Source: Dysidea avara
Lineage: Eukaryota; Porifera; Demospongiae; Dictyoceratida; Dysideidae
Direction: 5' to 3'
Length of the DNA stretch: 64,000 nt
NCBI RefSeq assembly: GCF_963678975.1
Contig: NC_089285.1
Location: 6,248,694 to 6,312,693, forward strand
Shown here: positions 1 to 42,009 of the stretch, piece after piece
Layout of the letters: each line of letters opens with the position of its first letter
Numbering within the stretch: position 1 is the first letter of the stretch
The notes under the pieces: generated by a model
Database searches by the model: none
Told to the model about the DNA's origin: nothing
What the model saw: only the letters and a program-made list of their open reading frames with translations
Made by a program: the position numbers and the translations under genes

Positions 1-28
1 AAATAAACTATCTGAGCTTTGAGCCCTG

Positions 29-592
29 GTGACTCATTCTGATTATCATGTGATAGGTATAACAGAATCATGGTGTAATGACTCTATCAGTGACGGTGAA
101 TTGTGTTTGAAGGGTTACAATCTTTTTCATGCTGATAAAATGTCTGGAACTGGTGGTGGCGTCTTACTGTATCTGCATGAGTCTTTACCGGCCACATTGT
201 GTATTCCTTTAATGGACCTTCATGTTGATGATTCACTGTGGTGTAGTCTCAAGTTGAGGGGCAATGAACTGCTCCTTGTTGGTATTGTTTACCATTCTCC
301 ATCCTCGAGTGACGTCAATAATTGTAGATTACTATCTTCCATTAGAAGTATTAATGAACTTAACTTTTCTCAAGTTCTACTCATTGGAGATTTTAACATT
401 CCTGGCATCAATTGGGAGGACTTAGACTATGCAGGGAATGCATCATCCCTAGCTGCTGACTTACTTGATGCTACTAATGATGCTTATCTATTTCAGCATG
501 TGACTGGTTTTACTCGTCATAAAAGTGGTCAAAAATCCTCTCTTCTTGATTTAGTGTTTACTTTCGATATTAACTTCATTCAATTTGTATAA
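29..592 (+). pseudogene. LINE apurinic-type endonuclease domain (partial)
   Basis: The 187-residue frame carries the APE/exonuclease-III-like endonuclease used by non-LTR elements to nick target DNA. Visible motifs are GITESW near residue 10 (catalytic Glu), GGGVLLYL, a VYHSPSS segment, and LIGDFNIPGINW around residues 117-128 (the Asp/Asn catalytic pair). SLLDLVFT near the end is the usual close of the domain. The catalytic His block, which in this family has the form PLGSSDH, lies after the frame break at 592 as PLGSSYHD, so the Asp has become Tyr. A stop upstream at about 20-22 shows the N-terminus is also broken. Confidence 0.85.
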
Positions 593-604
593 CACCACTC
601 TCCG

Positions 605-865
605 TTGGGTTCTAGTTACCATGACTGTTTGACATGGCAGTATGAATGTTTGTTTGACAACCCAACTGCTGAGAGTCTACCGTGTACTTACAACTACTGG
701 AAAGGAAATTACTTGGCTATGTGTAAAGAATTTAATGAAATTAATTGGGACCTGTTACTCAGCAATGATACTATTGATATCAATTGGAACCTCTTTAAGG
801 AAAAGGTTACGTCTGATGTCGATAAATACGTTCCAAAAGTTGCTAAAAAAATTCCATCAAATTAA
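605..865 (+). pseudogene. LINE endonuclease-RT linker fragment
   Basis: This 86-residue stretch follows the endonuclease block after a frame break. It opens with GSSYHDCLTWQYEC, the degenerate end of the endonuclease, and continues with the acidic, tryptophan-rich linker (NYWKGNY, INWDLL, INWNLF) that sits between endonuclease and RT in CR1/Jockey-type ORF2. It ends in a stop at 863-865. About 170 bp to the next frame are degenerate linker. Confidence 0.7.
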
Positions 866-1034
866 CCTCCATAATGGTCTAGCTCACTTGCAAAAGCGAT
901 CAAGCAGAAATAGCAGTTATACTCCACATTTAAATATACTCACCAACCCTCTGACTATGCTGCATATACCATTAAAAGAAACAAAGTAAAGTCCATGGCA
1001 AGAGCTGCACAGGCTAAACATGACCAACAATTAA

Positions 1035-1961
1035 TTGATAAATTTCATGCTAATCCCAAGGCTCTGTATGGCTATGAGGGACAAATCTGGGCTAAAACCC
1101 AAAATTGGTCAAGTTGCTAAAACTGATGGTACCCTTACTGGAAATGATGGAGAAACTGCTGAAGTCCTTAACAACTTCTTCCACTCAGTGTTTACAAATG
1201 AGTGTGGTGCTACCGAAATCCTCCCTTCTAATGCTGATCAATTGTCTGACATATGTATGACAGAAATTGAGGTCTTTGAGGCACTGGCATCATTAAAACC
1301 TAATAAAGCCCCTGGACCACACAACATACATTCACAGGTACTAAAGAATTGTGCTGAAAGATTAGCTAAACCATTATTTTTATTGTTTACACAATCTATA
1401 AGTACTGGTATACTTCCTAGTGACTGGAGAAGAGTAAACATAACACCTATCTGTAAAAAGGGCTCCAAAATCAGCCCTGAAAACTACAGACCTATTAGTT
1501 TGACATCTCAGGTAATAAAGGTTCTGGAAACTTTGATTAAGTCTAAAATGATGACGTTTTTGGACGAAAATAAAGTTATTGCTAATTGCCAACATGGTTT
1601 TATTAAAAAGAAATCTTGTTTTACCAATCTTTTGATGACTCTCGTGGATTGGACTATTGCAGTTGACCAGGGCTATGGAGTTGACGTTGCCTACCTTGAT
1701 TTCAGTAAGGCGTTTGACTCAGTGCCACATCAAAGGCATCTTCAGAAGTTAGCTAGTTATGGATTTAGTGGCAGGCTGCTGTCTTGGCTTAAGGGATTCC
1801 TCTCGGATCGCTACCAGAGAGTCATTTTGAATGAGTTCTCTTCAAGTTGGTGTGCTGTGACAAGCGGTGTTCCCCAGGAATCTGCCCTGGGGCCACTATT
1901 ATTTACATTATATATTAATGACATACCGAACATCGTTCATACTGACTTGAGTCTTTGCTGA
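1035..1961 (+). pseudogene. LINE reverse transcriptase, fingers and palm
   Basis: The RT domain is clear. LKPNKAPGPHNIHSQVLK is the N-terminal RT block, PSDWRRVNITPICKKGSK and NYRPISLTS form the next blocks, and YLDFSKAFDSVPH is motif A with the first catalytic Asp. SGVPQESALGPLLF is motif B; the usual form is QGS, so Gly has become Glu. The frame ends at 1959-1961, just before the catalytic FADD box, which is present one base out of frame. The loss is therefore recent or simple. It belongs to the LINE spanning 1-2912. Confidence 0.9.
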
Positions 1962-2824
1962 CGATTCTAAGGTCTATACAGTTATTAAGACCCTTGAGGA
2001 TACCCACAAGCTACAGGCAGACCTTGACAGTATTCAAAACTGGTGTCATATATGGTTGTCAAGACTAAATTTACAGAAATGTAAAGATATGCATGTGGGA
2101 TATTCTCACATTGTTGCTGAATATGTTCTGTGTGACAATTCTGGTGAACATATTAAGCTGACAGAAGTTGACCAAGAGAAAGATATTGGGGTCTGGATTA
2201 CCAGTGACCTTAAATCATCTCTGCATTGTTCTAAGGCAGTGGCATCTGCTATGAGAGTTCTCTCCATGATTAGAAGGACATTTGCCAACATTTCAAAAGA
2301 CCTATTTGTGTTTCTTTATAAGACATATGTTAGGCCGCACTTGGAATACTGTGCATCTATATGGAGTCCCAGTCTTGCTAAAGATATTGACGTATTGGAG
2401 AAAGTCCAAAAGCGGGCTACAAAGATGGTTAGGGGCCTTGGACACTTGCCATATGAACAGAGGTTAAAGTCTTTAGATTTTTACACTTTATTTCGTCGAC
2501 GCCAACGTGGTGACCTCATTGAGATCTTCAAGATACTGAATGGGTATTATCAAGAATTAATAACTCTGGGTATTATGAGATAGACCCTACAAAGTTGTTT
2601 ACTTTAACTGATGTCAGCAACACTAGAGGTCATCACATGTAGCTTTTTAAATCTCACACCAGACTGAATGTTCGATCTAACTTTTTTACCCAACGTATCA
2701 TTAACAGCTGGATTAGTTTACCTCAGGAAGTAGTCTCAGCTCATACTATCGCTTCCTTCAAGTTGGAGTTAGACGACTATTGGTCTAGTTCAGGATATGG
2801 ATATGAACAAAGGCTTACAGCCTA
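1962..2824 (+). pseudogene. LINE reverse transcriptase, catalytic FADD box and C-terminus
   Basis: Directly after the stop at 1961 the shifted frame reads LFADDSKVY, the RT motif C with both Asp residues intact. The frame from 2056 holds DIGVWITSDLKSS (RT motif D/E region), FLYKTYVRPHLEYCASIW, LEKVQKRATKMVRGL and FYTLFRRRQRGDLIEIFKIL, the thumb and C-terminal blocks typical of CR1/Jockey elements. After a further break near 2581 the tail continues as NTRGHHM, NFFTQRIINSWISLPQEVV and a terminal WSSSGYGYEQR block ending with a stop at about 2824. Confidence 0.85.
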
Positions 2825-31329: not shown

Positions 31330-34300
31330 TCCCGAAATAGTTCATTCGTCTCGAGTTGATATATATAAATTCCCTTGCAACTGCAACTAAATCTAAGGTA
31401 TCAGTTCTTGGCTGGTGAACATGCATTAGCAACAAGTTATTCAGTTTACATGCGCTCATTGTATTTCCAAATATGTTTAATTTGACGGAGGCTTGAAAAT
31501 GATCTTTCTGCTGTCGCAGTAGTCACTGGAAATGTGTAGTACAGCAGTGGCATAGCTAGGAAAAAAATTTTACAGAGGCAAAGTTTATACATTGGCCTAA
31601 TTGAGAGGACCTGACTCAACTGATTCACGTACACTTTCAAGCATGGGTGGTACAGCATTTACAGGGTTGGATGGAAGAAACGTTTTTAGAAGATTCTGAG
31701 CATTTTTCTACATGTCATTAGTAATTCTCCAACTTATAGTTAATGCTATATATGTATACCATACTCAATTAATAGAGTATAGTTTAATTTGTATTTAACA
31801 CAAAATTGACATACTCTGGTTGAGTGGTTAAGCCATCCATGGACTGTCATAGTCATATACACTATACTTTTATTGATCTGGTGTAATATTTAGTCAGAGA
31901 TTATCTTTTTTTATGTGATGTTCAACTGCATGTACTAAGCATGTCAAGCTAGGGAGTCCGGAAATATGCTCTTTCGAGGAAAATTTTGAAAATATAGCTA
32001 TGTTCTGAAATAGCTAATTTTGATTGTAACTGCTAATGCGTGATAAGCATGATCAATTAGCTCCGAATGCCATGCAGTTGACTCACTGGAACAGCATGCA
32101 GAGTAACGAGAACAGTGGCTATAATCTATACAGAATGCTCTATTAGAGTATATTACGATGACTGCTCTATTAGAGTATCTCAATACAAATTCAAGTAGCT
32201 GACAAGTGATCCAGCCAATGTGTCACCGTGGGCTCCAGTCCTGCATAGTGCTACAACCATAGATTCTATGCGTGTGGTACAGTATTAAATGCTGCCTAGT
32301 AGAGAAACATCGAGCTGCCAAAACTCAGGCCTGCTCAGCCTGAATTGTTGAGCATTTTTTACCGAGGCAGTTGCCTCGGTTGCCTCAATGGTAGCTACGC
32401 CACTGTACAGCAAAAGGAGTTTATTGACTTCACAAAGCATATTTTTATACATTTCTGATTGCAACATGGCATCTGCTATTGTTCTAACATTAGTAACTCT
32501 TTTGATAGTACCATTAAGTGCAGTTTTAATTGCATCATGCAGCATGCACAACTGGACCTTCAAACGTGCTACATCCACATCTCCCTCAAGAAATCTTATA
32601 AAAGCTTGAGATAATGTGTCCACAGCAGTACCATTTGCAGATGTTAGTAAAAGGGTCTCTATATCTAGAATCAATTGGATGTCTGATTGATCAAACCTTC
32701 TTTTAACTTCTTCTGATACTGTATCAATAGCCTCGTAGTATGTTTGCCGATACATATCTCTTGCACATGAGTGTTGATGATGTGCAGATGATCCAGCCTT
32801 CTAGGTAATTTACGGTTTCTCGACAATTTTGGCTCATCATTTAAAGACTGTGAGTCATGGACAACATGGTCATAAAAACGACTGAATGTAGTTTCATTCT
32901 GCATTGAACTAAGATGAGAAGTAAGCATATTGGCATCTTTCATCGCTTCTTGAACAGTGATATCCACAGCTTGGATATTTGTAGAACATTGCTCAGCTGG
33001 AGCAAATATTTGGTGAGACAGCTTTAGGCCGAAAAATGTATCAAACTGTTCCATTCGATTCAGCAAACCACTCGCCTTTGCAGTATATTCATCATGTCCT
33101 TCCTGTATTGTATCAAGTGCAGTCAACAATACTTTGTAATTCTTTAAAATAATTGCTATAGTGCCATGCCTTACAGTCCAGCGAGTTGGACAGAGAGTTC
33201 TCAGTGAAGGTAATGTTTCTCCTGTGTTCAATGTCACATCGCTTCTTAATGTTTCAAAAAGGTTTAACCTTTTAGGAGAAAACTTTATCAGCTGAACCAA
33301 ATTATAAATAAAATTCAAAGTGTTTCGAAGAAGCTTACACTTTTTAGAAACATCTTGTACACACAAATTTAAACTGTGTGCTAAACAATGAACATATAGA
33401 GCTCTCGGTTCTTCTTGCTTAAATAGAGCCTGGGCACCATTCCTTATGCCACTCATATTACTAGCTCCATCATAAGCCTGCCCTCTACATTAAGAAACAG
33501 ACAATGGACACCTCATCAATACATCTTTGACTTCATGGTGGATGGTCATAGCTATAGTATTAGGTAGCTCTTTCAGGCCTAAGAGATCTTCATGAACCTC
33601 ATAGCTATTACTAACCCAACAAACTGACACAGACACTTGCTCAGTACCTGAGATATCAGTGGCTTCATCAGCAATTACAGCATACCACCAGGCACTGTTA
33701 ACATCATTTATGATGCTTATAATAATCAATTTGCCCATTAATTTTATCAGTTCATCTACAATTACTGGAGAAATATACTCACGTTTCTTCAACCATTCAT
33801 TCATGCCTGGACATTCTTCTGCTTACAATAGCAGAAGTTGATACAGGTTGCCCTGAAATGTCTCTGAATTTTCACTATGGCCTCTAATAGCCAGACCCTG
33901 CTTCCCTAAAAATTTGATTGCCCATAACAACTTTAAAAGCATGTGTCTATGAAACTCCTGTTCAGAAGCAGATTTGGTATCTAGGATACAGCCAATGTCG
34001 ATACTGGATGCCCTCTAATGAAGCCATTCTGTTGCTTCACGGTGCATTCCACTTCTTTCATGCATGTCAAATCTTTCAAGGGCCTTGTTCCAGTTACCAA
34101 AGCTTCACTTATAAACGATGAGTTTTTAAGTAGTGAAGTTGACACTAGCCCATGTAGCTTTGCTAAGCAACAAACCCTACAAAATATTTTGTACCGACTT
34201 GTACAAACAGTAATCCAAGGGTACTTCTTATACCACGATGTCTGTATAGTTCTGCAGTATTGCTTTTTCTGCCCTGGCTGCCTTTCCTTGCTAAGATGGG

Positions 34301-34796
34301 ATTGCACAAACTTTGACTGGGACACATCTGATGGCTGATTTGGAATAATTAAATTACTGCAGCCAACGCATTCACATGACTGTGAGTTATCTGACATGCT
34401 ACATGCAGTCACACCCTCAGTCACATCATCAACTACTGCGCCCCTCGTCGAACTAACACTAACTTCCAGTGTACCTACGACATTGCTGCTACTTAGAGAA
34501 TATGCCTGAGAATTTGGTCCTTCAATTTGTACTTCTGATTGTTCAGCACTAACCTGTGGCACCAGCTGTATCTTCGCTTCGCCTTCGTGTCGTCGGACTG
34601 GAGTGCCATCGGAAATGGATTTGCACGTAGTCTGTTCCACTATATCCGTTTCCCGACTATCTGAATCATCGCTGCAATCAATGATTATGATTTTGGACAT
34701 TCCTCTTGTCTTGGCACCCGTGCTAGCAGATTTGCTCTGGGATAATTTTGTCGAAAACTCATAGATTTTTCTCTGACGATTATCCATTATGAACAT
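31330..34796 (-). pseudogene. hAT transposase, ZMYM1/TTF-like (DUF4371 + Dimer_Tnp_hAT)
   Basis: Blocks from the N-terminus (34796 downward): a low-complexity acidic leader; TTF-type finger region with SWYKKYPWITVC and FCRVCC (34200-34100); a DUF4371 part containing WWYAVIADEATDIS (33490-33804); YDGASNMSGIRNGAQALF and LYVHCLAHSLNLCVQ with TLCPTRWTVRH (32671-33492); a C-terminal helical part (32285-32755); and the dimerisation motif TFPVTTATAERSFSSLRQIK (31480-31545). The DEATD and CLAH...CPTRW blocks are the hAT catalytic-region signatures. Defects: a single in-frame TAA at 33490 between two same-frame parts, frame shifts near 33900 and 32700, and the 861-bp insertion. Introns are not needed to explain the order. 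Confidence 0.88.
31545..32405. mobile_element. Non-autonomous TIR element, 861 bp, inside the hAT transposase
   Basis: Ends CAGTGGCATAGCTAGG and GGTAGCTACGCCACTG are inverted repeats flanked by direct TACAG (31540-31544, 32406-32410). Removing the element and one TACAG joins NKLLLL directly to YYTFPVTTATAERSF, the expected run into the hAT dimerisation motif. The interior is non-coding; CTCTATTAGAGTAT motifs occur twice at 32135-32175. Confidence 0.92.
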
Positions 34797-34906
34797 ATCA
34801 CATGATATACGATCACTTGATACAAAGCTAGAGTTTTATAATAGAATAAAAATCCTAGGGGTGCGCCAGCACCCGGCGCACCTGTGGTTCCTACGCCCCT
34901 ATACAT

Positions 34907-37400: not shown

Positions 37401-38858
37401 ATAGGGCTCTCACAATTAATCTATATTATTTATCTACACAAAACAACCAAGACATGTGTGGTTTGGCTCCATTACAAGTTTGGGAAAGGGTTGAAATATC
37501 TACTGCACTATTAAGGTTTCCCTAAGAAAATGTATAGTGGAAATTTTGATTAGTTGTAAATATTGTCAGGAATTTGAACGAAGAAATACTTTTAGCGGGT
37601 CAAGCAGTGCTACAAATGAGCCAAATTTCAAGATTATGTGTAATTGTATCCTTGAATTACATATTAAAGGTCCACTGAAAATGGAAAATTCACTTGCATT
37701 TTTATTGAACAAATACGTAGGTTGTTTGTATCATACAATGTACAAAAAACACCTTTTTAATAATTCAATTGTGTTCCGAGATATTAAGCCACAAAGTCTA
37801 GTTGCATCATGTTGTGAGAGAACCGGAAGTATTATTATTGCACACTTTGCAGTGGGAAAGGATAAACGGTGAAAGTCTATAAATGTGCAGGTGACAACAC
37901 CAAGCTCTTCTTTTCAACTTCATAGTGTTCCAAGATTACTTGAATGTTTTGCTGGAAGACAATAGGGGACTTATTCAGTAGTTGCCTGTAACAGTTCGTC
38001 CTGTATGTTTCGCACTTCAAAGCTTGGCTCACCTCGAAGCTCACGCTTCATTATGCTTCACTGAACTAAGATTAGTTCGATTTGTTTACAAAGCTGGGAT
38101 AGCAGTACCACAAAACAAACAATGGTATCTATGATATACTTTCCTGAGTAACTTCTCCACCTGGTAGGGATAATATCTCGTGCATATCTTGCCAGTGGCA
38201 TTATTGCAATTGTTTTTCCTCGCATTTCTCTACCTCCATTCACTGTATTGGACTCTAAATGTATTCAAAACATTTAAAAAATAAACATAAATGTGTTTCA
38301 ACCACTGTACTGTTGATTTACAGTCCCTTAAACAGGTGTTCTCGAGCATTCTTCACTACAAGACCAGTGTAAATTCACTTACTATCTCCCGTAGGCTTGT
38401 AAATGGTTGTAGTACAAGATCTTTCAAGTTGTTATGTTAGATATGACATGAAATTACATCGAATCTAGCTGTACATGGACGCTTCTATCGCTTTAATAGC
38501 ACCCTGATGTATTATGATGTAATATAATTGACAAACCACAACACACTAAAATGTGTTATATCTACTAAACAGAACAAAATCTAACTAAATCACATGCACC
38601 AACCTATCCCATCAATAGCAAGGATTGATAATAGCCAAAGTGTATTTTACCATTTTAGTGGACCTTTAAATGTTTTGAGGATCCAACTGAACACGTACAT
38701 GCTATAGGTGTAGAGCATCAGAATACCATATAACAGGTTATTTTCGAAGGGGAAATTTTCGAAGAGCAGCTGATAAAATAAATTTTGAAAGTTTAAATTT
38801 CGAAGTCAATTGCCTAGCATTAGTGCCACTAAAAATAATTTCGCTAGTGTGCGTCAAG

Positions 38859-39380
38859 ATGGCTAGCATGTGTAGTGGTCCAATCAAAATTGCTACAGTC
38901 GTCAGGAGATATCATGTTTATAAAGACATATGGGCTGCTCCTGTAGGAGAAATTTTGTTTTGCCAACAGGAAACCGTAGCCATCGTTGAAGAAAGTCAAG
39001 TTGTTGGCCACATGTGAAGAGAAATCTCGTCGGTTTGTTCCGTATTTCTTTAGTCCGGGACAATAACGTGCAAAGTTACTGGCAGTAGACATTCTTATGA
39101 CCTAGAGCAAGGTGGCATCTGGCATGCATATTCCGTGCAAATTGAGATTTACCTGTTCAGATCAAGAACTCCTGAAGACTAAATGCAAATTGTTGGATCT
39201 CGCTCTAAAGAAGTCTGATTTGGAAATGCCACTTAAGAAGATCAAGCTAGAGCCTGTGGAAGCACCCACTATACTGATACCAAGTACCAGTCACCCTGAG
39301 AGTCACCCCATACCGGTATCATCTGATGAAGTGATGATTGTAAGTGACAACTTGGATTGCAGTAGTGGCTCCACTTAAGT
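38859..39380 (+). pseudogene. HIRAN-like N-terminal region of the transposon protease gene
   Basis: From ATG 38859 the frame reads MASMCSGPIK, then YHVYKDIWAAPVGEILFCQ, VAIVEESQVVGHM, a TGA at 39015, REISSVCSVFL, a second stop, GTITCKVTGSRHSYDLEQGG and, after a frame shift, MHIPCKLRFTC and KTKCKLLDLALKK. This succession (YHVY-D-W, G-Q, V-GH-P-E-S, TGRR-like, then a PC-x-L-F strand) resembles the HIRAN-like domain found in many cnidarian and sponge transposon-associated proteins. HIRAN domains bind DNA ends in other proteins. The usual NPHDRYAV segment is shortened here. It is separated from the protease frame by one more shift at about 39380. I infer they formed one protein, because both lie on the same strand inside one element. 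Confidence 0.6.
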
Positions 39381-39383
39381 TTT

Positions 39384-39992
39384 ATGGCTGCTGAAAAGAA
39401 AGATATTGACACACAGTGGGTTAAAACTGACCGCACAACTTTACTTGACTCTCACAAGAAAGCAATATTACACGGCAACCAGTTAGATGACACCATCATA
39501 AGCTTTGCTCAAAAGTTACTAAAAAAGCAGTTTCCTAACAATAATGGACTTCAGAATACACTGCTACAAGCAAAGAAACAGGTGGATGGAGAGAAATCAC
39601 GACAGCTGCAGGTGGTACATTGTCATAGCAATCACTGGATCCTTGCCTCCACTGTCCATGATGACAGCTCAGACAGGGTAATGACATATGATTCACTGTA
39701 TGATGCTGTAACACTGACAGTCATAAGTGGTTTGTTTGGACCAACAGCTATGCCAGAAATTGTTGAAGTACAAAAGCAGCATGGAACTGCAGACTGTGGA
39801 GTCTTTGCTATTGCATTTGCAATGGCCATTTGTTTTAAACAGGAACTTGCTCCTTTTAACCAAGGCTCGATGCGTCACCACCTAGTCCAGTGCTTTGAAA
39901 AGAGTGCTTGTTTCCATTCCCACTTGTACAGAATTCTTAATGCTTGTACAACACATTTAATTGTATTTAGCTATGTAAAATTATACCAATAA
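39384..39992 (+). CDS. Ulp1-like (C48 family) cysteine protease domain
   Basis: The 202-residue frame opens with an acidic lead and a LDDTIISFAQKLLKKQFPN block, where Ulp1 family members have their W-L-D-I substrate-binding start. VVHCHSNHWILAST at about residues 78-91 supplies the catalytic His, MTYDSLYDAV the Asp, a Q-K-Q-H-G-T block the oxyanion Gln, and TADCGVFAIAFAMAI at about residues 136-150 the Cys. All catalytic positions are kept. Known family members cleave SUMO or related modifiers, or act as viral/transposon processing proteases. The substrate here is unknown. ATG 39384 is the first in this frame but may be internal to a longer gene starting at 38859. No polyadenylation site was assigned; the convergent transposase ends about 90 bp downstream. 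Confidence 0.8.
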   Translation: MAAEKKDIDTQWVKTDRTTLLDSHKKAILHGNQLDDTIISFAQKLLKKQFPNNNGLQNTLLQAKKQVDGEKSRQLQVVHCHSNHWILASTVHDDSSDRVMTYDSLYDAVTLTVISGLFGPTAMPEIVEVQKQHGTADCGVFAIAFAMAICFKQELAPFNQGSMRHHLVQCFEKSACFHSHLYRILNACTTHLIVFSYVKLYQ

Positions 39993-40079
39993 TTATTGCA
40001 ATATTGTAAAACGTACATCATGATCATATCAACTTAATCAGCAAAAATGTTATCAAACACAGTTTAATTATAATTCTAG

Positions 40080-41500
40080 AGCACTTGTGATTCCCACAGC
40101 ACGAAATCCATTCTTTGCCAATGAAGGGTTATTCTGCAAGTAACAGTGTGCTTCCACAAGCCAGTCTGCTCTAAGTGGTTTCAGCTTACTCATGTGTAAA
40201 CCCACAGGAGTGAATTTCCATTCTAGCGGCAAAGGCTTTCTACCTCACTAGAGTACCACTGTTGAAATTTCTTCCTTAAGAATTCTTTTACAGCTTTGTT
40301 CAGTGACAAGTCCATGGGTTGAAGACGGTCAGTACAATTTGGAGGCACTTTAACAACAAAGATGTGATTAGAATCCAACAAGGAAAATATACCAGGGGTA
40401 AGCTGGCCTTTAAACTCATCGTATATAGCCAGTGCTGGATGGTTAGGTGCAACTTTGAGGTCCTTCCTTTTTCCTTGGACATACAGTACAATTATATTGT
40501 CAATGTACTCCTTCATCTTGTCTTCATTACTCCAATGGTTGGGAGTATATGTGACATCCCAATTGTCTGGGAACAGAAATTTGGCAAGCAGGCTGTAGTC
40601 TTGCCCTGGTAAATCAACTGTACTGGTAAAAATTCACCAGCCAATGAAGCACAAAATACTGCCGTTATTTGGCGCTTATCATTAAGACCAGCTAATTCAA
40701 CCCTTTTTGACCCTTTTGGCTCCATGATCCATTGTAATCCAGGGACAATGTTGATCCCAGTGTGGTCCCAGTTAAACACAAGTTCAATTGGAATCTTCAT
40801 CATTTCCACCACAACCTTTATATCTAAAATATACTGTTCTTTAAGTTCATCAAAATGTGATAGATCTATTTTTGCAGTGGTGGTAGCTTTTTGCTTTACA
40901 TAATTCATGCGATTAAGTAAAGATTTAGCCCAATGTCTGGTGAGTTTAATTGGACCTCCGTTATCATGGAAAGCTTTTCATTGCAATGCTTTAATATAGC
41001 TTCTCCAGCTGCTAAAACACTGTTGTGGTAACAGCTCCTTTTCCATCACGTGTAGCACAAACGTAACTCTGAACTTGCTTGTCAAGCTCATTTCCTATTA
41101 ACAGTGGTCTTCCTCGTTTCTTGCTGGGTAAACTGGTCACAACAATTTCTCCTGATTCAGCGTACTTCCCTTCTTTCTGGCACTCTTTTATTGCATTACA
41201 ATATTTAGACTTCCAGGTACTAAGCATACTGTCCTTTATCTCCACATGAAATTCTTTGCTATGTCGAAGAATGGCCGTTTGATTCCCATGGTCAACGGCA
41301 AACTTTGCAACTTGGGCTGCCTGTGTAGATGTAAAACTGCCATATTTTTCTCTGCTACGTTTCTTGCTGCCATTTTTGGTAGCCTGCTCTACACTTTTAT
41401 TCGCCTCCCTGATTGCCACTGATGGCATTTTGTTAGACAAAGGTCTATTAGGATCCGGAAACTTGCTGGAGATGGGTTTAAAATAGCAATGTAAAGCCAT
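40080..41500 (-). pseudogene. pogo/Tigger-like DDE_1 transposase, frameshifted
   Basis: Cut-and-paste transposase of the Tc1-mariner group, pogo branch. From 41500: MALHCYFKPI leader, a basic helix-turn-helix part (GSKKRSREKYGSFT, QAAQVAKFAVDHG), then KKRGRPLLIGNELDKQVQSY; a frameshift near 41012; MNYVKQKATTTAKI; and the DDE_1 core. LVFNWDHTGINIVPG holds the first Asp, HPALAIYDEFKGQ the second and DRLQPMDLSLNKAVKEFLRK the third. The C-terminus resumes after a shift at about 40225 as ADWLVEAHCYLQNNPSLAKNG. All three catalytic acids are present, so the copy looks young apart from about three frame errors: 41012, between the frames 40908-40513 and 40516-40223, and 40223. Confidence 0.9.
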
Positions 41501-42009
41501 AACGCAATGAATATTTCACACTGTTCTTGTTCTGCACGAGGTCTTACGTAAAGTTAGAAATCGATTGTGGTATACTCGATTGCCGTGTAGGTGGATTTAT
41601 ATTCAAAGAGTTAAATTATCATAGAACCTGTGCTTTTCAAATATTTTGAAAATTAAACTCCTTCGAAAATAATCCATTATATGGTAGCATGTCATATTAT
41701 CTTTAATAATGTTGGCTTGTACTGTGCAGCTAACAGCCAAGTGAACTATACTGCATCATTCATATCAACAACAAATGTAGGAACATTATCTGCTGCCACC
41801 CATCATTAAAGTTGTGACATATGTCTATAAATTGAATGCAGTAGGTGTACTCAACACTGTAGCATCACACAGAAGACTAAACTCTTTCAACCATCACATT
41901 CTCAATAATCACTGGTTGAATTGCTGGATCATGTTATACCAACCACCAAATAAACAGAACTACTTGGTAAATGGTAACCATATCTTAATGCTTGCTATAC
42001 ACTAAGGAG

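Follow-up and report, generated by a model that had tools for sequence, protein, structure and literature searches.

To our knowledge, the role proposed for Ulp1-type proteases in transposons has never been demonstrated. Ulp1-type domains occur in several unrelated mobile elements, as described in parts of three reports (PMC2836005, PMC3212892, PMC4640811). Ginger1 is an animal DNA transposon in which the Ulp1-type C48 domain forms the C-terminus of a Gypsy-integrase-like transposase (PMC2836005). Mutator DNA transposons, cited in the same paper, are cut-and-paste elements that also encode a Ulp1-type domain. Oomycete CryptonS and CryptonF carry a C48 peptidase alongside a tyrosine recombinase (PMC3212892). 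NeSL and Utopia are non-LTR retrotransposons with a Ulp1-like cysteine protease domain (PMC4640811).

The pogo superfamily, as far as one survey describes it (Gao et al. 2020, PMC7386202), is composed of elements of 1.2-5.2 kb with a TA target site, short terminal inverted repeats (TIRs), and a DDE_1 transposase. The catalytic acids are spaced as DD35D in Passer and in Fot/Fot-like elements. N-terminal helix-turn-helix (HTH) domains listed there are CENP-B_N, HTH_ABP1_N, HTH_psq, HTH_Tnp_Tc5, and BrkDBD.

HIRAN is best compared with the domain of HLTF, a protein reported to combine it with a RING-type ligase that ubiquitinates PCNA and with a translocase of the SWI/SNF type. The HLTF HIRAN domain binds a 3'-OH ssDNA end, and it recognizes the 3' end freed in the Cas9 post-cleavage complex, which the N90A-N91A substitution impairs (PMC11237066, in part).

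The element described here lies in a 64,000-nucleotide stretch of contig NC_089285.1 of the sponge Dysidea avara (the window). It shares the TA target site, short TIRs, DDE_1 transposase, and DD35D spacing of pogo elements, and its length falls within their range. Unlike the pogo elements of the survey, it has a second, unrelated, convergent gene, and its TIR starts with CCRTA. This gene is separate, fused to HIRAN, and placed beside a pogo transposase, in contrast to the domain of Ginger1. Mutator elements belong to another transposase superfamily, and the passages on them mention no HIRAN. The Cryptons differ in using a tyrosine recombinase where the sponge element uses a DDE enzyme, and NeSL and Utopia differ in being retrotransposons. 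Where HLTF pairs HIRAN with a ligase, the sponge gene pairs it with a protease of a tag-removing type. Among the papers listed in the literature searches, none describes a HIRAN-C48 gene in a pogo element.

The Window Copy

The preliminary description had placed both genes in one unit bounded by TIRs and TA dinucleotides, and this holds (Table 1). The inverted repeats (38724-38750 and 41660-41686) span 27 nt including the TA and are 89% complementary. Full-length relatives have the same ends (L002, L003, L005, L006, L008, L009, and L010), and TA is found at both ends in five independent insertions of the window subfamily. Because relatives elsewhere in this genome terminate at identical bases, with TA on both sides, the boundaries are not due to chance.

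Table 1. Features of the pogo-type element, in window coordinates.
Feature	Position	Strand	Basis
Pogo-type DNA transposon, relic copy, 2959 bp	38726..41684		TIRs and full-length relatives with the same ends
TA target-site duplication, left	38724..38725		Sequence and relatives' ends
TA target-site duplication, right	41685..41686		Sequence and relatives' ends
Left TIR (protease side)	38726..38750	+	Inverted-repeat match; relatives' ends similar
Right TIR (transposase side)	41660..41684	-	Inverted-repeat match; relatives' ends
HIRAN domain region of accessory gene, frame-broken	38859..39157	+	Frames 38691-39017 and 39106-39378; relatives match PF08797 and HLTF HIRAN
Linker tetrapeptide IKLE (psi-K-x-E), adjoining basic NLS-like stretch	39241..39252	+	Window frame; motif count in family linkers
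C48 (Ulp1/SENP-type) protease domain	39384..39914	+	Window frame, tblastn, SENP1 profile, alignment
Catalytic codons of C48	His 39633-39635, Asp 39690-39692, Gln 39777-39779, Cys 39795-39797	+	Alignment to L009
DDE_1 (pogo-type, DD35D) transposase gene, several frames, convergent with protease gene	40071..41515	-	ORFs, Pfam, tblastn, alignment

The window copy (L001) is a frame-broken relic and sits inside a segmental duplication. Its accessory gene is split over three frames, the two given for HIRAN in Table 1 and 39366-39992; the last, the C48 frame, departs from the family sequence near its end. The transposase is spread over three or more long frames (40223-40633, 40513-40977, 41012-41515) and is recovered as five pieces in tblastn. 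On the window's own ORFs, Pfam scores DDE_1 with an E-value of 2.3e-7. The earlier HIRAN-like and C48 calls are borne out in relatives, which match both domains, but not in the window's broken ORFs, where Pfam finds no HIRAN and C48 is under the cut-off (E 0.09). A structure predicted for the window protein alone had a mean pLDDT of 37 and was discarded.

The Family in the Sponge Genome

Family counts, trees, and ratios refer to one 551-Mb genome. The window element belongs to a large family with at least 99 transposase places there. A protease-gene match adjoins 83 of the 84 places examined, and the remaining one (L018) has the HIRAN part only. The convergent order read in the window is found in 68/68 listed pairs. 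Both matches are free of stops in 20 of the 52 pairs compared. One relative (L005:2853-4340) has the transposase as a single open frame of 496 aa. Both frames are open in the TIR-bounded elements L081 (498+394 aa), L082 (490+449 aa), and L083 (557+438 aa). Read by eye, the ends are TA/TA in L081 and L083, and in L082 one end carries TA while the opposite end has a different dinucleotide.

Whether the same TIR family also occurs without the protease, raised beforehand as a sign of chance capture, is answered mostly in the negative. Against the 83 adjoining matches stand three fragmentary transposase places from the DNA search (L019/L020, L023, and L029), whose fetched flanks gave no protease match, also with more queries. 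Short derivatives with nothing but the element's ends exist as well, and the protease is therefore not needed in cis. The reverse case, a protease away from its transposase, is seen at one locus (L039), where no transposase match was found, again with more queries. A control with other pogo lineages is weak, as it sets only top-ranking listed places against each other: of the best 150 PF03184 places, 0/150 overlap the first transposase list, 1/150 lies within 4 kb of a place in the first protease list (at 3.3 kb), and 6/150 lie within 4 kb of a listed HIRAN place.

Alignment A1 was also run against viral contigs (37 stretches fitted the pattern) and a collection of genome contigs (49 stretches), and alignment A2 against viral contigs (33 stretches); no relative was confirmed in these searches.

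The Transposase

Of the 12 transposase rows, 11 have a DDE_1 match, the best at E 2.2e-15. The three catalytic acids first recognized in the window are seen in the alignment as D-D-D in 11/11 covering rows, the second and third separated by 35 residues. At E <=0.1, HTH_Tnp_Tc5 is found in 2/12 rows (best E 0.0048), and CENP-B_N, HTH_ABP1_N, HTH_psq, and BrkDBD in none of the 12, some of which lack the N-terminus. The transposase profile has no match in the PDB at E <=0.1.

The Accessory Protein

In the protein encoded by the accessory gene, HIRAN is N-terminal and the C48 isopeptidase domain C-terminal, and the linker between them bears NLS-like and SUMO-attachment-like motifs. The Pfam HIRAN model passes its gathering score in L009 (E 2e-5; 24.8 bits vs 24.7) and L005 (E 2.7e-7), and matches 9/12 rows at E <=0.1 (best E 2.5e-7). 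Against HLTF HIRAN, the family profile gives a short match of modest score (E 0.009). The N-x-x-D and VGH motifs are common to both. All 11 covering rows have an Asn at the position of HLTF N91 and, three residues further, an Asp; we take this Asp to correspond to HLTF D94. The position of HLTF N90 is not conserved in the family.

Pfam C48 matches 11/12 rows at E <=0.1 (best E 3.4e-6), with L009 and the window ORF under the curated cut-off. The family profile matches SENP1 (E 1e-5), and in this match the His, Asp, and DCG blocks line up. The catalytic His, Asp, Gln, and Cys follow one another in this order, with HW and DCG blocks. His, Trp, and Asp are kept in 12/12 rows and Gln and Cys in 11/12; the exception, L005, is frame-shifted upstream of them. 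This conservation extends over 37-64% identity to L009. The His, Asp, and Cys blocks of the original reading are placed in the window by alignment and are shared by its relatives. C48-like enzymes may act on SUMO, NEDD8, or ubiquitin.

In the linker, the SUMO-attachment consensus psi-K-x-E occurs in 9/13 sequences vs 1.6 expected, a count prompted by looking at alignment A1 and including both L005 and L008 of one subfamily. Outside A1 and its close kin it occurs in one of three linkers (present in L072, absent from L057 and L077). The nuclear-localization-like K[KR]x[KR] is found in 5/9 linkers vs 1.2 expected. The general SIM motif is not enriched (8/13 linkers vs 6.3 expected); a narrower VVDLT-type motif, picked after looking, is present in 3/13 vs 0.33 expected.

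Selection on the Protease Gene

Between L005 and L009, the protease gene has a dN/dS of 0.22 (95% bootstrap 0.16-0.30) at a dS of 0.71. Each part is below 1 (HIRAN 0.16, linker 0.24, C48 0.26), and the transposase is at 0.10. Among near-identical copies the ratio runs from 0.21 to 2.09 where dS is above 0, a scatter of the kind that neutral decay after insertion would produce. The ratio below 1 anticipated across copies is found between lineages; near-identical copies have no clear constraint among themselves. The protease and transposase trees, whose agreement was the other check proposed, are largely congruent (Mantel r 0.84), and two well-supported conflicts persist.

Pairing, co-divergence, and between-lineage constraint together uphold the earlier view of the protease as a conserved accessory gene, and they support the conclusion that it is no chance passenger of the pogo family. 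This sponge family offers numerous copies within a single genome in which both genes are paired and open, and each protease-gene domain is under purifying selection. Almost certainly, the window unit is what is left of an autonomous pogo-superfamily lineage with two genes, in which the accessory function is conserved.

Proposed Function and Alternatives

The second gene suggests that the element may manipulate host protein tagging at its own DNA, and the HIRAN module suggests where a transposon-borne protease would act. Judging from its domains, the accessory protein probably has SUMO-type isopeptidase activity. The DD35D transposase would make free 3' DNA ends. The HIRAN-C48 protein would enter the nucleus and dock on these ends or on the element's chromatin. 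There it could remove SUMO or a ubiquitin-like tag from the transposase, or from repair or silencing factors. Transposition and repair would then go ahead, and host repression would weaken. This full account, a HIRAN-guided isopeptidase for SUMO or ubiquitin-like tags on the ends of the element's DNA or on its chromatin, has perhaps an even chance of being right. Guidance by HIRAN specifically to 3' ends is a tentative proposal. Somewhat more doubtful is the broadest version, an old, many-lineage pogo strategy in the sponge in which a transposon-encoded, DNA-end-guided deSUMOylase finds the 3' ends made by the element itself and removes SUMO or ubiquitin-like tags from anything that the host loads on them, the chemical inverse of the ligase-type HLTF. 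If true, it would tie transposition to the control of post-cleavage repair and chromatin. The family makes the recurrent Ulp1 curiosity testable through end binding, isopeptidase activity, and effects on excision or silencing.

A rather unlikely alternative is that the protease desumoylates host silencing proteins on the element, piRNA-guided or other heterochromatin factors, with HIRAN merely a tether to DNA or chromatin and no part in the transposition reaction. The SENP-type profile match and the NLS-like linker motifs are consistent with this, and the faster evolution of the protease than of the transposase would fit a host-facing protein. In Drosophila, SUMO and Panoramix are reported to be linked to piRNA-guided transposon silencing. 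A HIRAN domain that binds DNA ends would be an odd choice for such a role.

It is improbable that the protease instead acts on the transposase, stripping a SUMO or ubiquitin-like tag from it or clipping it, and in this way controls how stable or active it is. The two proteins are tightly paired and co-diverge, but any two genes on one element are expected to co-diverge.

A protease captured once and carried without function is very improbable. Ulp1-type domains in unrelated elements, the lack of clear constraint among near-identical copies, and transposase fragments without protease would fit such a passenger; the near-complete pairing, the low ratio across a dS of 0.71, and the catalytic residues kept in distant copies argue against it.

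Two unrelated relics between unrelated repeats, joined by annotation, might be suspected from the broken window copy with its weak or unscored C48 and HIRAN parts, but independent insertions that share their ends, together with copies that are complete and open, make this negligible, and with the convergent pairs, tree agreement, pairing counts, and dN/dS they lead to the rejection of chance capture and annotation artefact alike.

Structure and copies of the element

The accessory gene of this pogo-type family encodes HIRAN, a linker and a C48 (Ulp1/SENP-type) domain. On sequence comparison, it is a selected gene that is nearly always paired with the transposase gene and has SENP-like and HIRAN-like domains. 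In the window copy, Pfam recovers DDE_1 clearly, C48 at just E 0.09, and HIRAN not at all; the C48 and HIRAN calls are weak or absent there because frameshifts break both genes. A 9-10 bp motif, found by eye, occurs as two direct copies within the ends of this element and of two complete relatives, L081 and L083, and is perhaps a transposase site.

Features of the window (Dysidea avara NC_089285.1) and of other places in the same genome
Feature	Position	Strand	Remark
Pogo-type element	38726-41684		Inverted ends of 27 nt including TA, 89% complementary; TA on both sides
HIRAN then C48 coding region	38859-39914	+	Frameshift-broken
Transposase coding region	40071-41515	-	Frameshift-broken; convergent with HIRAN-C48 region
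Frames resembling a non-LTR retrotransposon	23-2583	+	Endonuclease and reverse transcriptase, by eye
TTF-zinc-finger/hAT-type transposase gene-like frames	32671-34835	-	By eye
Repeats of the segment that holds the window element	C14 4.48-6.29 Mb		Several along C14; flanks 89-99% identical
HIRAN joined to transposase (L013-L018)	C10 ~17.62-17.88 Mb		Six similar copies
Putative end-only piece, ~0.5 kb	G000:C4:1067760-1068273
Putative end-only piece, ~0.5 kb	C13:2112944-2113449
Putative end-only piece, ~0.5 kb	C3:271323-271843
Separate HIRAN frame (L061)	C1:2783730
Separate HIRAN frame (L073)	C15:9254406
Separate HIRAN frame (L076)	C2:33182792
HIRAN frame by another transposase (L084)	G000:C2:6701600-6704000

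The window's own assembly (550.8 Mb, 108 contigs) was searched. Full-length relatives of 80-97% identity share their ends and TA flanks with the window element. On contig C14, the window copy (L001), L002, L003 and the partial L004, L007/L011 and L012 have one or both flanks in common and are therefore segmental duplicates of a single insertion; L009 and L010 likewise share flanks and represent one insertion. The window subfamily thus has five independent full-length insertions (the C14 set, L005, L006, L008 and L009/L010). L005 has an open transposase of 496 aa and a protease that is frame-shifted ahead of Cys, its match stopping at residue 353 of 409. In L009 the accessory frame is open, over 409 aa of matched sequence or 361 aa when counted from Met, and the transposase is split over two frames. 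Three further elements are complete, with TIRs and both frames open: L081 (498+394 aa), L082 (490+449 aa) and L083 (557+438 aa). All three TIRs start with CCRTA; TA lies on each side of L081 and L083, and on one side of L082, where the other side has a non-TA dinucleotide.

Altered forms are also present. In L013-L018, HIRAN is joined to the transposase around residue 400, and the C48 part and transposase C-terminus are absent. Match positions in the three putative end-only pieces suggest that both ends are kept and the genes are gone; this suggests MITE-like derivatives, which would need mobilisation in trans. In the subfamily of L061, L073 and L076, HIRAN has an open frame of its own (166 aa), set apart from the C48 match, which would reflect an intron or a shared frameshift.

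Pairing of the two genes

With the L009 protease and the L005 transposase as protein queries, 130 and 88 matches were listed, which merge into 101 protease and 86 transposase places. Among the matches listed, 52 pairs lie <5 kb apart, all convergent (52/52), with gaps of 92-538 bp; 20 of the 52, L005 among them, are stop-free in both matches. Another 34 listed transposase places were unpaired, and all 20 for which 1.5 kb downstream was examined have a convergent protease match. Queries from a second subfamily raised the listed transposase places to 99: 68 are paired within the lists (68/68 convergent), 15 are paired via flanks and 16 remain. One of these, L018, keeps the HIRAN part alone, five have a HIRAN match convergently downstream by coordinates, and the last ten lie outside the examined set.

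The preliminary description held that the protease is a conserved companion of the transposase, and this is borne out by a protease-gene match at 83/84 examined transposase places, which include segmental duplicates and so represent fewer independent insertions. Each protein search scored the best 86-102 of 1454-1752 first-look candidates, and the pairing counts are therefore not a census. Three transposase places among the fragments from the DNA search (L019/L020, L023 and L029), each of them truncated, have no protease match in the flanks examined, with more queries included. From the protease side, 20/21 loci (L039-L059) are flanked by a transposase match; none was found at L039, with more queries included. 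Among the matches listed, 68/139 merged protease places have a listed transposase <5 kb away, the remainder being mostly outside the examined set.

Protein domains

The catalytic residues recognised in the window copy recur across the family. The transposase D-D-D triad, its second and third Asp separated by 35 residues, is present in 11/11 covering rows (aligned family sequences). The C48 His, Trp and Asp are found in 12/12 rows, and Gln and Cys in 11/12, the exception being the frame-shifted L005. The C48 profile matches SENP1 at E 1e-5, and in that alignment the His, Asp and DCG blocks coincide. PF08797 (HIRAN) is matched by 9/12 rows at E up to 0.1, and the HIRAN profile matches HLTF (E 0.009). 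All 11 covering rows (11/11) have an Asn at the position of HLTF N91 and, three positions further, an Asp; the position aligned to N90 is variable. A structure model of the window protein reached just pLDDT 37 and was discarded.

The linkers vary in length and sequence. The SUMO-attachment consensus psi-K-x-E occurs in 9/13 linkers vs 1.6 expected by shuffling (0/10000), and the reversed motif in 0/13. In a 9-linker set, psi-K-x-E occurs in 7/9 (1.7 expected) and the NLS-like K[KR]x[KR] in 5/9 (1.2 expected). Both motifs were spotted before testing and two of the 13 linkers belong to one subfamily, so this enrichment is a lead.

Selection and co-divergence

Between L005 and L009, protease dN/dS is 0.22 (dN 0.160, dS 0.714, 358 codons, bootstrap 0.16-0.30), in line with the predicted value below 1; by part it is 0.16 for HIRAN, 0.24 for the linker and 0.26 for C48. 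The transposase value is 0.10 (0.07-0.14). Pairs among L001, L005, L006, L008 and L009 give 0.22-0.59 (protease) and 0.10-1.00 (transposase), with the closest pairs accounting for the high values, and pairs with the decayed L004 reach 0.64 and 0.80. In four other subfamilies, near-identical copies (dS 0.00-0.09), most of them on separate chromosomes, give scattered values of 0.21-2.09, as expected from neutral decay after insertion combined with selection during transposition.

The expected agreement of protease and transposase trees holds in large part. Distances correlate across 22 paired loci (r 0.835; 0/9999 permutations as high) and with near-duplicates removed (16 loci, r 0.67; 0/9999), and 13/19 splits are common to both trees. 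Agreement fails at two well-supported conflicts, which involve L057 and L082 and may be rare exchange or tree error.

Proposed role of the accessory protein

Ulp1-type domains are carried by Ginger1 elements (PMC2836005), Mutator elements (as cited in PMC2836005), Crypton elements (PMC3212892) and NeSL/Utopia elements (PMC4640811), according to excerpts of these papers. By term counts, "protease" is absent from the main text of two pogo papers (PMC7325037 and PMC7386202). Titles and abstract openings of the papers listed by searches of the open-licence PMC literature, a set outside which Repbase reports fall, yielded no pogo element with a HIRAN-C48 gene. No relative was found in prokaryote and viral sequence collections, the window's own genome being the only eukaryotic genome covered.

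The accessory protein would act in the nucleus as an isopeptidase that HIRAN tethers to the element's 3' ends or its chromatin. The precedent is HLTF, whose HIRAN domain guides it to an exposed 3' end within a post-cleavage protein-DNA complex (excerpt of PMC11237066). HLTF joins HIRAN to a ubiquitin-ligase domain and a translocase, whereas here HIRAN accompanies a predicted isopeptidase; the accessory protein would therefore be HLTF's chemical opposite. The main rival explanation is an anti-silencing role of the protease.

HIRAN elsewhere in the genome

At L084, a HIRAN ORF of 144 aa is 38% identical to the L009 HIRAN over 125 aligned positions. Next to it, in divergent orientation, is a DDE_1 transposase of a very different kind (459 aa within the 2.4-kb piece, Tigger-like by eye), whose best alignment with the family transposase spans 32 residues. 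By eye, no C48-like ORF is seen in the 2.4 kb examined. More than one pogo lineage may have recruited a HIRAN domain. The domain is amplified in this genome: among 100 HIRAN places, 30 fall within the first protease list, a further 11 lie beside the first transposase list, 6 are near other DDE_1 places and 53 are elsewhere or unresolved.
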